From Herpetosiphon geysericola (lineage in GTDB: Bacteria; Chloroflexota; Chloroflexia; Chloroflexales; Herpetosiphonaceae): DNA of 64,000 bases. Location: contig NZ_LGKP01000022.1 in assembly GCF_001306135.1 (NCBI RefSeq), positions 310,001 through 374,000 of the forward strand, written 5' to 3'. The first letter of the stretch is position 1. Each line of letters begins with the position of its first letter. A program made the translations under genes and the position numbers. Positions 55,189 to 60,533 of the stretch are shown in pieces. A model generated the notes under the pieces. The model ran no database searches. It was not told the origin of the DNA and saw only the letters and a program-made list of their open reading frames with translations.

Positions 55189-55264
<76 letters not shown>

Positions 55265-55311: not shown

Positions 55312-55386
<75 letters not shown>

Positions 55387-56512: not shown

Positions 56513-58618
56513 TTAGCTGCGAGCTTTTTCGACCAATTCTTCTTGCAAGTTGCGTGGAATTGGCTCGTAGTGATGGAATTCCATCGAGTAGGTGGCGCGG
56601 CCTTGGGTTTGTGAGCGCAAATCGTTGACATAACCAAACATGTTGGCCAATGGCACGAAGCCACGCACGACTTGAGCGTTACCGCGAGCTTCCATACCTT
56701 CGATCCGGCCACGGCGACTGTTGACGTCACCGATGACACTACCCATGTAATCTTCGGGCACAATCACTTCGATCTTCATGATTGGTTCCAAGATTTGAGG
56801 GCCGCCACGGCGAACGCCGTCCTTCAAGGCCATTGAAGCGGCAATCTTGAAGGCCATTTCCGACGAGTCAACGTCGTGGTATGAGCCGTCGAACAAGGTT
56901 GCTTTGACATCGACCACTGGGTAGCCAGCGATAACGCCAGTTTCCATGGCTTCGCGGATACCTGCTTCGACTGCTGGTACGTATTCGCGAGGTACAACCC
57001 CACCAACGATACCATTGACGAAGATATAGCCTTCGCCTTCGCCTGATGGCTCGAACTTGACTTTAACGTGGCCGTATTGACCTTTACCGCCCGATTGGCG
57101 CACGAACTTGCTATCGATATCGACGCTCTTGGTGATGCTTTCGCGGTAGGCCACTTGAGGCTTACCAACGTTGGCTTCAACCTTGAATTCGCGCATCATG
57201 CGGTCGACGATAACTTCCAAGTGCAATTCGCCCATCCCGCGGATGATCGTTTGGCCAGTTTCGACATCGGTGTTCAAGCGGAAGGTTGGATCTTCTTCAG
57301 CCAAGCGTGAGAGTGCAATCGACATCTTGTCTTGGTCGGCCTTGGTTTTTGGCTCGATCGCCACCGAGATAACTGGTTCTGGGAACTTGATACTTTCCAA
57401 AACCACTGGATCATCTGGTGAACAGATGGTATCGCCAGTGAAGGTATCCTTTGGACCCACCACAGCAGCAATATCGCCTGCGTACACTTCCTTGATTTCT
57501 TCGCGGTGGTTAGCGTGCATTTGCAGCAAGCGGCCAACCCGTTCGCGCTTGTTCTTGGTGGTGTTCAAAACGTATGAGCCAGTTTCGAGCTTACCTGAGT
57601 AAACGCGGAAGTAGGCCAACTTACCCACGAATGGGTCAGCCATAATTTTGAAGACCAAGCCAGTGAACGGTGCATTTTCGTCTGCTGGGCGCTCGATGAA
57701 CTCTGCGTCTTCAGCTTCTGAATCAACGCCTGGGCGCACAGCCTTGGTCACTGGAATTTCCAATGGTGAAGGCAATAGCAACACAACAGCATCGAGCATG
57801 CGTTGCACGCCCTTGTTCTTCAAGGCTGAACCACACAAGACTGGTACCAATTTGTTGCCGATGGTGGCAGCGCGCAGGGCGCGGCGCAATTCTGGCACTT
57901 GCAATTCTTCGCCTTCGAGATAGAGCATCATCAACTCATCGTCGGTTTCGGCGATTGCTTCGAGCATATAATCGCGGGCTGCTTTGGCTTTTTCAGCCAA
58001 TTCAGCAGGAATTTCGCGTTCTTCTTGAACTTTACCAACATCGTCCATATAGAAGATAGCTTTGTTTTCCATCAAATCGATGATGCCTTGGAAGCGATCT
58101 TCGGCCCCGATTGGCAATTGGATCGGCACTGGCTTAGCGCCAAGGCGATCAACAATCATGCTGACGGTACGGTCGAAGTTTGCGCCCATGCGGTCCATTT
58201 TGTTGACAAAACAAATCCGAGGCACGCTATATTTATCAGCTTGGCGCCACACCGTTTCTGATTGTGGCTCCACACCGGCCACTGCGTCGAACACCACTAC
58301 GCCACCGTCGAGCACGCGCAATGAGCGCTCTACTTCAGCGGTAAAGTCCACGTGGCCAGGCGTGTCAATAATATTAATTTGATAGCGTTGCTCAGCATAT
58401 TCCCAGTGAGCGGTGGTAGCAGCAGCGGTAATCGTGATCCCACGTTCGCGCTCTTGTTCCATCCAGTCCATGGTGGCAGCGCCTTCGTGGACTTCACCGA
58501 TCTTATAGTTACGACCGGTATAGAACAAAATCCGTTCGGTGGTAGTCGTTTTCCCTGCGTCAATGTGGGCAATAATCCCAATATTGCGTACTCTGTCGAG
58601 TGGTGTCGAGCGAGGCAT
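56513..58618 (-). CDS. fusA: Elongation factor G
   Basis: A 701-residue translational GTPase that drives tRNA-mRNA translocation. The G domain (about 1-290) has [15 protein letters not shown], the switch segment [21 protein letters not shown] and [10 protein letters not shown], with domains II-V following. It is downstream of rpsG but separated by a terminator and an internal promoter. No tuf gene follows; instead the transcript ends at a terminator. AACGGAG is placed near the ATG. Confidence 0.98.
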
Positions 58619-58784: not shown

Positions 58785-59258
58785 TTAGAAGCGAGCGTAG
58801 TGTGAGAAGGCGCGGTTGGCTTCAGCCATACGGTGAACTTCTTCACGACGCTTGACGGTTGCACCAGTGTTGTTGAAGGCATCGACCAATTCGAGCGCCA
58901 AGCGTTCGTGCATTGGTTTGCCACTGCGAGCGCGAGCTGCGGTCAACAACCAACGAATTGCCAAGGCAATCCGGCGGTCGCTTTTAACTTCGACTGGCAC
59001 TTGATAAGTTGAACCACCGACGCGCTTTGGGCGAACTTCGATGGTAGGGCTTGAGTTGCGCAACACTTGTTCGAACAACTCAACTGCTTCGCGGTTCAAG
59101 CGCTGTGAAGCAACGTCTAAGGCGCGATACACGATGTTTTCAGCGACACTTTTTTTACCGTGCATCATGACCTTGTTGATCAACATTTGCACGTGTATGC
59201 TGTTGTGAATTGGATCACCAGGCACAATACGCTTGGCAATTTTTCGTCGTCGTGGCAT
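58785..59258 (-). CDS. rpsG: 30S ribosomal protein S7
   Basis: A 157-residue primary assembly protein of the small subunit head. It has the family start MPRRRKIAKR and the conserved segments GKKSVAENIVYRAL, VRPKRVGGSTYQVPVEV and KREEVHRMAEANRAFSHYARF. The gene follows rpsL by 16 bases. S7 can repress its own operon by binding a leader structure in some bacteria. Confidence 0.98.
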   Translation of the reverse strand: MPRRRKIAKRIVPGDPIHNSIHVQMLINKVMMHGKKSVAENIVYRALDVASQRLNREAVELFEQVLRNSSPTIEVRPKRVGGSTYQVPVEVKSDRRIALAIRWLLTAARARSGKPMHERLALELVDAFNNTGATVKRREEVHRMAEANRAFSHYARF

Positions 59259-59274
59259 TGTATTTTACCCTACC

Positions 59275-59715
59275 TTATTTTTTCTTCTTGCCCGTTGCAA
59301 CTTGAGCGTTCTTCTTGGTGCCGTACTTCGAGCGACCTTGCTTGCGGTTGTTGACACCTTGTGAGTCCAAGGTACCGCGCACAATGTGGTAGCGCACGCC
59401 TGGCAAGTCTTTTACCCGACCACCGCGAATCAAGACCACTGAGTGTTCTTGCAAGTTGTGACCTTCACCTGGGATGTAGGCGGTCACTTCCATTTGATTC
59501 GACAAGCGAACCCGTGCCACTTTGCGCAACGCCGAGTTTGGCTTCTTGGGGGTCATGGTCTTAACTTGCGTACAAACACCACGCTTTTGGGGTGCGCCGC
59601 TGCCGCGGGTAAGCTTGCCCTTCAGCGAGTTGTAGATGAAACGCAGCGCAGGTGCCTTGGTCTTTTTAACCACAGGTTTACGGGGCTTGCGGATCAACTG
59701 GTTGATCGTTGGCAT
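59275..59715 (-). CDS. rpsL: 30S ribosomal protein S12
   Basis: A 146-residue protein of the decoding centre. It contains [19 protein letters not shown] and [17 protein letters not shown], with the Lys residues that change in streptomycin resistance kept as wild type. It has the insertion of about 13 residues between PAL and PQKRGVC ([17 protein letters not shown]) found in monoderm-type S12. The tail is rich in Lys. GGAGG precedes the ATG. It heads the str operon. Confidence 0.98.
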
Positions 59716-59892
59716 TCAATTCCTCCAAAAATCTTGGAAATACCGAGTTTTGACGGTTCTCACGTCTACTATACCGTGAGCGTGTTCTAGCCTAACTAGC
59801 TATGGCATTGCCGCCCCAATGCCGCGAACAGTCAGAATCAATTGGTGTTCAATCAGCCAGCTGGTTGATTGACCCCAGCGAAAAATTGCAGC

Positions 59893-59919
59893 AAAAAAAG
59901 CATGCCCACCACGGGGCAT
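59893..59919 (-). terminator. Terminator-like hairpin early in the str leader
   Basis: ATGCCC-cgtggt-GGGCAT (59902-59919) followed on the minus strand by GC and seven Ts, starting only about ten bases after the predicted transcription start. Confidence 0.65.
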
Positions 59920-59928
59920 CGACCGCCC

Positions 59929-59957
59929 AGTATAGCACCTGCCTAGGCCTATGTCAA
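59929..59957 (-). promoter_or_regulatory. Main promoter of the str operon
   Basis: On the minus strand TTGACA (59952-59957), a 17-base spacer and TATACT (59929-59934) with a TGC extension. It is as close to consensus as any promoter in the window. Confidence 0.8.
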
Positions 59958-60080
59958 ACCACGCCTACATTTTTAGCTGCTCTATAAAGCAGGTTGGGTG
60001 TTGTGCGAAAAACATGGCTATTCAGCAAGCAAATTTTAGCGGGTGCAGCGGATAATCGATAGTATCTTGCAATAAGAATG

Positions 60081-60533
60081 TTAACGCTGCCAAATGAGCA
60101 TATTATTTTGATCAAACAATTGAATTAATTGTAATTCACGATCATTTGGGATGACTACCCCAAAAAATCCTTGCTGCGGTTTGATATCAAAATCTCTTGT
60201 GCTCCCATCGCTCATTACTAAATGGATGCGACTTGCTTGGAGATCAAGGACATAGCCACCATAAAAAGTCCCTGCTTGCTGCTCCGAAAAGCGCTCTTCA
60301 CGCTGGCATTCTACAATCTGATCAGTCAGTTTGAACGAAATTATACTTCCACCATTGCTTCCAACACAGGTTAATTGCAAGCTTGAATCAACCATTAGTT
60401 GAACTGGATGTTGGGTTAAACGATAGCTTTTGGCCTGAAATTGACTGGTTTGAGGATTAATACTATTAGCTTGCTGGCTATTACATCCAATCAAGAGCAG
60501 TATCAGCCAAATTATTCCTTGGCTATATTTCAT
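60081..60533 (-). CDS. Small lipoprotein, unknown function
   Basis: A 150-residue lipoprotein with a lipobox LLLIGCNS at about 11-18. The mature part is beta-rich with two Cys (TCVGSNG and VECQREE) that could form a disulfide. No family is recognised. Its ATG overlaps the stop codon of the degenerate deoC gene, so both are on one transcript. It lies 365 bases upstream of rpsL on the same strand. Confidence 0.7.
   Translation of the reverse strand: MKYSQGIIWLILLLIGCNSQQANSINPQTSQFQAKSYRLTQHPVQLMVDSSLQLTCVGSNGGSIISFKLTDQIVECQREERFSEQQAGTFYGGYVLDLQASRIHLVMSDGSTRDFDIKPQQGFFGVVIPNDRELQLIQLFDQNNMLIWQR

Follow-up and report, generated by a model that had tools for sequence, protein, structure and literature searches.

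A putative RNA control region ahead of the str operon in Herpetosiphon, and a conserved terminator element in the rpsL leaders of Chloroflexales

In Herpetosiphon, the region between the predicted promoter of the str operon (rpsL-rpsG-fusA) and the rpsL start codon is rich in hairpins. Does it hold an attenuator, and which of its hairpins would do the work? The first-pass annotation of the 64,000-nucleotide stretch analysed here (the window) described a promoter followed almost at once by an intrinsic terminator, then further hairpins and a second -10, and proposed either transcription attenuation of rpsL-rpsG or two alternative promoters. To place the leader among its relatives, 60 related genomes were searched for rpsL, which was found in 58 (no match in G051 and G056), and 57 Chloroflexales leaders were kept after dropping L059, which reaches a contig end and has no leader, and L001, a duplicate of L003. 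Six of these genomes are Herpetosiphon, the genus of the window genome, and they are closely related and not independent. A second set of 14 genomes represents other orders of the class and gave 13 leaders, with L159 omitted as its gene start is absent.

The leader and its promoter-proximal hairpin

The promoter TTGACA-17-TATACT was recovered on the minus strand and agrees with the consensus at 11 of 12 letters. Taken from this predicted promoter, the leader in Table 1 would form the 5' end of the rpsL-rpsG-fusA transcript. Across the 57 Chloroflexales leaders, the best promoter-like site reads TTGACA in 54 and TATACT in 48, and the start codon was found 141–255 nt downstream of it; the site is weaker in the Herpetosiphonaceae metagenome-assembled genome (MAG) OHK22 (G007), where it reads TTTGCA-18-TATACT. 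DNA upstream of the -35 box is hardly alignable among the Herpetosiphon genomes. In many leaders of families f3 and f4, the first ~10 nt of the inferred transcript resemble ATCGCTGYGC or ACTGCTGCG, and f2 transcripts are inferred to begin ACCGCT; GTGTGC-like letters recur ~30 nt beyond the recurrent start sequence in Chloroflexales rpsL leaders. A lipoprotein-like open reading frame (ORF) lies upstream of the promoter, and one scan of one-per-species genomes returned no relatives of it.

Table 1. Features of the str operon and its leader, in window coordinates
Feature	Coordinates	Strand	Description	Basis or conservation
Leader RNA	59716-59922	-	5' leader of rpsL-rpsG-fusA	predicted promoter
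-35 box	59952-59957	-	TTGACA, predicted rpsL promoter	consensus match
-10 box	59929-59934	-	TATACT, 17-base spacer, TG preceding	consensus match
T1	59893-59919	-	hairpin ATGCCC/GGGCAT, then GC and U7; terminator-like	identical in 6/6 Herpetosiphon genomes
T1 stem-loop	59902-59919	-	ATGCCC-CGTGGT-GGGCAT, followed by GC	
T1 T7 tract	59893-59899	-		
H2	59842-59878	-	long hairpin at the position of the relatives' distal terminator, without U tract	predicted fold, most pairing kept
H3	59804-59823	-	GGCATTG/CAATGCC	arms invariant in 8 genomes, three genera
H4	59788-59802	-	TAGCT/GGCTA	different fully paired stem in G007
H5	59753-59783	-	ACGCTCACG / CGTGAG-AAC-CGT, AAC bulge, loop GUAUAGUAGA	
Inverted repeat	59759-59780	-	CTCACG/CGTGAG, containing TATAGT	
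TATAGT	59768-59773	-	"second -10", part of H5 loop, probably no promoter	
Shine-Dalgarno hairpin	59722-59740	-	TTTCCAA/TTGGAGG, pairs the Shine-Dalgarno sequence	
Shine-Dalgarno sequence	59722-59726	-	GGAGG	
rpsL	59275-59715	-	ribosomal protein S12, 146 aa	named by sequence recognition
rpsL-rpsG gap	59259-59274		16 nt	
rpsG	58785-59258	-	ribosomal protein S7, 157 aa	named by sequence recognition
fusA	56513-58618	-	elongation factor G, 701 aa	named by sequence recognition
ORF	60081-60533	-	lipoprotein-like, 150 aa, upstream of rpsL promoter	
tRNA genes (two)	55192-55264, 55315-55386	-	downstream of fusA, same strand	

The terminator-like hairpin soon after the promoter was likewise located. T1 begins ~4 nt past the inferred transcript start and has six base pairs with a folding energy of -8 to -10 kcal/mol, two bases separating the stem from the U tract. 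As a single sequence, T1 is an ordinary terminator and not beyond chance. A terminator scan of 3 kb returned 4 sites, compared to 4.0 ± 2.3 in shuffles; 230 of 300 shuffles of the window leader hold a hairpin and U tract with dG ≤ -8, and 16 of 300 hold one with seven Ts. The T1 hairpin itself was matched by 64 of 200 of its own shuffles, and the whole leader folds slightly better than shuffled sequence (z -1.65, 8/200 as good). What lifts the leader above chance expectation is its conservation, since only one column varies in the 54 bases following the -10 box across the six Herpetosiphon genomes. Because T1 is invariant within the genus, covariation cannot test it. The claim that the terminator is conserved holds at this level, with T1 identical in all six species, and stops there: in the two other genera that carry the three-hairpin element described below, other sequences occupy its place. 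G008 has other hairpins at that position, and G007 has a tRNA-Val(CAC) gene (L009:1263-1339) that separates the rpsL promoter-like site from the remaining leader, so the tRNA and the str operon may share a transcript. The idea that T1 is a remnant of this tRNA was rejected, as the alignment was no better than that of shuffles (410/1000).

Two readings of T1 have to be weighed. The first, which we think somewhat less likely than not, is that T1 works in Herpetosiphon as a regulated attenuator, at which polymerase stops ~30 nt after the start unless a signal prevents this. A hairpin followed by U7, in the correct order and identical across the species, is what such a device would look like, and 15 of the 57 Chloroflexales leaders have a terminator-like hairpin whose end lies no more than 25 nt from the inferred start (six Herpetosiphon, G006, six of genus g9, G022, and G055). 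However, the short stem, the low folding energy, and the two-base gap before the U tract count against it, as does a sequence that is not beyond chance. The candidate antiterminator, an alternative T1 pairing in the minimum-energy fold of the window leader, also relies on bases that the other five Herpetosiphon species do not have.

The second reading, which we rate neither above nor below the first, is that T1 acts at the 5' end of the mRNA, as a hairpin that shields it from decay or delays promoter escape, the U7 being incidental. Of the 13 leaders from other orders of the class, 10 fold significantly just after the -10 box (p ≤ 0.05), while only 5 contain, ahead of the gene and after the promoter, a hairpin and U tract that the scan accepts. 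Given that the 5' hairpin is more widespread than the U tract, which speaks against the attenuator reading, protection is as likely as termination for T1. Against protection stand the invariance of U7 in Herpetosiphon and the modest folding of the first 40 nt in Chloroflexales, where 9 of 57 leaders fold better than shuffles at p ≤ 0.05 (mean z -0.84) and the six Herpetosiphon leaders reach a z of about -0.3. Support for attenuation is confined to the order Chloroflexales and does not extend to the whole class.

A terminator element across Chloroflexales

Between promoter and gene, all 57 Chloroflexales leaders have at least one hairpin (dG ≤ -7) with a U-rich tract after it, compared to 42% of 285 shuffled leaders. 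At dG ≤ -15, the figures are 50 of 57 and 17%, and the seven leaders that fall short are the six from Herpetosiphon and L051. One conserved element was found in 43 of 43 leaders (f3, f4, plus G006; 41 distinct sequences), namely a terminator that encloses CTAAGGC-hairpin-ACCAG, with a stem around UCU-AA-GGCG/CG-A-CC-AGA and then the U tract. RNAalifold resolves its 5' side as a lower stem, UCU, an AA bulge, GGCG, and a variable hairpin, and its 3' side as CG, an A bulge, CC, and AGA. Eleven of the 16 pairs have changed on both sides, a number that 1 of 500 shuffles reaches, and the covariation score is 0.396 versus 0.193 in shuffles, with none of 500 reaching it. Slid pairings collapse, and five of the 16 pairs show no variation at all.

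When the 43 rows were made into a covariance model and 400 genomes of the phylum were searched with it, the model matched 31, all of them Chloroflexales, once each and, on comparing coordinates by eye, always just upstream of rpsL. These 31 are every f3 or f4 genome of that draw with an rpsL match, and matches there are expected because many of them gave rows to the model; what the search adds is the lack of second copies and of matches outside the order among the 400 genomes. An exact pattern matched 20 of the 400, 19 of them at rpsL. The other match, in G359, was set aside as chance, as it sits inside an unrelated 302-aa ORF that we take to be hemC. Six f2 leaders match the model weakly (E 6.7e-5, 0.0016, 0.054, 0.75, 1.0, and 5.3), and the Herpetosiphon leaders gave no match to it.

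Rfam 15 at the gathering score identified two tRNAs and nothing else in the window, and tRNAs alone in the 30 loci from relatives that were scanned; a relaxed threshold yielded two implausible sub-threshold matches in the window leader. The Chloroflexi-1 motif (RF01698) had no match at any locus scanned. A comparison of the order-wide element with eight loci holding 16S/23S genes from four genomes, made to look for rRNA mimicry, gave nothing above noise (best 8.3 bits, E 6.4).

On this comparative sequence evidence, attenuation of the str operon is well supported in Chloroflexales. The order-wide element is laid out like an attenuator, in which a conserved bulged helix resembling a protein site lies within the terminator, and this attenuator form is widespread and probably ancestral in the order. 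The first-pass proposal is supported in part: comparison speaks well for regulation of rpsL-rpsG through the leader and for attenuation in the order, and the case for attenuation is weakest in Herpetosiphon itself, where the strong distal terminator is absent.

Hairpins next to the gene in Herpetosiphonaceae

Beyond T1, where the earlier description had two more hairpins, four (H2 to H5) were found in the window leader (Table 1). H2 has 94% of cells paired over five distinct sequences, and two of its pairs have changed on both sides, a number reached by 192 of 500 shuffles; its covariation score is reached by 13 of 500. The segment from 59823 to 59753, which holds H3, H4, and H5, has three columns out of 72 that vary within the genus. 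Its hairpins are present in 8 of 8 genomes from three Herpetosiphonaceae genera, which sustains the expectation of conservation in close relatives for 59753-59823. In these eight genomes, the H3 arms and the 31 bases of H5 are constant, bar one H5 loop base in G007, and H4 is different: in G007, two of its pairs have changed on both sides (16/500 shuffles reach this). Covariation, which had been suggested as a check, was found for the order-wide element and for two H4 pairs; T1 is invariant, and so are the pairs of H3 and H5, which leaves their pairing without covariation support.

In a search of 400 genomes from the phylum, a list from which G008 is absent, a model of the three-hairpin element matched 7; all seven belong to f1 and match once each, at rpsL. 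A 26-base core pattern was found on five contigs of a one-per-species collection that may omit records near the window's own, all of them Herpetosiphonaceae (H. aurantiacus DSM 785, H. llansteffanensis, H. giganteus, and the MAGs MGR_bin20 and OHK22), and, when as many as 3 mismatches were tolerated, once in the genome of the window itself. For H5, the alternative pairings CTCACG/CGTGAG and ACGGT/ACCGT are both possible in all eight sequences, and conservation cannot choose between them because the stretch is nearly invariant; RNAfold prefers the bulged-stem form. A likeness of H5 to the sarcin-ricin loop (UAGUA...GAACC), which would have suggested EF-G, was dropped, since the pattern with up to 2 changes misses the sarcin-ricin loop in four 23S genes. 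In this comparison of H5 with rRNA, made with one pattern only, there was no convincing match.

The -10-like TATAGT does lie within an inverted repeat, as had been noted. Two promoters, a distal one and a proximal one at TATAGT that bypasses the leader, could be argued from its presence in 7 of the 8 genomes with the three-hairpin element. But the eighth, G007, reads TTTAGT, the best -35 candidates at 15–19 bases reach at most 3 of 6 matches in the eight genomes, and the invariance spans the whole H5 hairpin rather than a promoter pattern. The conservation of TATAGT fits its place within the H5 RNA hairpin, and we have dropped the two-promoter proposal as highly improbable.

In some other Chloroflexia (L152-L155 and L158), the 50 nt that follow the rpsL -10 box contain a palindrome of ~15 pairs (CGTGACCC/GGGTCACG or TTGTGACCC/GGGTCACAA), which may form an RNA hairpin or serve as a DNA operator. 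Near-perfect palindromes directly after the -10 box in several of these genomes would suit the view that some palindromes are operators for a transcription factor and not RNA structures. We consider this very unlikely, as compensatory changes preserve the pairing of the bulged structure in Chloroflexales, and the pairing of H4 is preserved despite sequence change.

Nearer the gene, a hairpin pairs the Shine-Dalgarno sequence. Mean Shine-Dalgarno pairing is at least 0.8 in 7 of the 8 genomes with the three-hairpin element, versus 1 of 45 other leaders; as six of the eight genomes are close relatives, this is a lead and not proof. The 45 are the 48 leaders outside the nine family genomes, minus three that contain none of six Shine-Dalgarno-like words, and G006 was treated apart. 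The value is 0.62 in G007 and 0.52 in G006. In the window, the local fold around the Shine-Dalgarno sequence is equalled by 57 of 200 shuffles.

Proposed mechanism and relation to known leaders

The leader seems to be a genuine RNA control region that has been conserved. With slightly more confidence than doubt, we read it as an autoregulatory str-operon leader that was ancestrally an attenuator and in Herpetosiphon probably acts mainly on translation, with the ligand, direction, and level of control all putative. In the Chloroflexales form, an operon product in excess would bind the bulged helix and so stabilise the terminator. In the window's Herpetosiphonaceae lineage, the distal terminator and its module would have been lost or altered, and H3-H5, with the invariant stem, bulge, and loop of H5, would have appeared beside the hairpin that pairs the Shine-Dalgarno sequence. 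H3-H5 would most likely be the receptor now, acting mainly on translation start, and T1 may provide partial early termination or 5'-end protection. By precedent, S7 would be the first choice of ligand.

The leaders of the window's family, to which G006 also belongs, differ in what they have kept. G006 has the order-wide terminator module. G008, a MAG, has a stem and U tract in common with G006 (AGGTCTTCGAT) without the module, and has H3-H5. The MAG G007 has its tRNA-Val gene, another terminator-like hairpin, and H3-H5, and Herpetosiphon has T1 and H3-H5 with no distal terminator. The order of events here is inferred from the comparison of these leaders. A bolder version, that Herpetosiphonaceae swapped the str-operon attenuator for a new class of translational leader RNA (H3-H5) with intermediates still alive, seems to us doubtful. 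If it is true, H3-H5 would be an undescribed protein-binding RNA. Herpetosiphonaceae may show by what steps a leader of this kind gets replaced. In Chloroflexales, the compact covarying element of the 43 genomes examined has a bulged helix that suits binding trials with S7, S12, or EF-G.

In a limited collection of literature, no recognisable account of a Chloroflexota rpsL leader was found among the matches listed. In the excerpts available, "rpsL" is absent from the paper that describes the Chloroflexi-1 motif RF01698 (PMC2864571) and from PMC6429828 and PMC11109978, and the excerpts of Eckert and Weinberg (2020, PMC7247131) hold neither "uS12" nor "uS7" and a single "rpsl", beside rplM in the L13 row of a table. 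The rpsL motif of Meyer and co-workers (2009, PMC2704228) is, per its authors and in the part of the text available, found in "Cand. Pelagibacter ubique" and marine metagenomes only. It resembles the window leader as a structured RNA ahead of rpsL whose ligand is unassigned, and differs in its shape, a bulged P1 leading to a three-stem junction.

Closer parallels concern ribosomal proteins. The 2024 review (PMC10931766), as far as its excerpts go, describes S7 control of the str operon as studied in only a few groups, and E. coli S7 as binding the rpsL-rpsG intercistronic region. The operon is the same here, and the precedent makes S7 the likely ligand, but the structures stand before rpsL, and the rpsL-rpsG gap appears too short for a structured intercistronic site of the E. 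coli S7 type, none being present in that gap. As a model, the Bacillus L10(L12)4 and L20 leaders treated in the same excerpts are alike in that a ribosomal protein, once bound to the leader, tips it towards the terminator; the proteins and RNAs are others, and the leader here has no Rfam match.

The nearest relatives by layout are the "rpsL-leader" attenuators of Naville and Gautheret (2010, PMC2965389), presented in the available text as widespread and multiform, with an uncertain partner and no shared structure. The taxa named there are Listeria, Xanthomonas, Pseudomonas, Rickettsia, and streptococci. "Chloroflex" is absent from that main text, and its supplement or an earlier 24-species prediction may list a Chloroflexota case. 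The Chloroflexales leaders lie between the operon promoter, as placed by consensus, and rpsL, and a terminator structure is conserved in 57 of 57 leaders of the order, in Herpetosiphon in the form of the weak T1 alone. As in the published attenuators, to judge from the text available, a premature terminator precedes rpsL-rpsG-fusA and the structures are lineage-specific. Unlike them, Herpetosiphon is without a strong terminator, and another element adjoins the gene.
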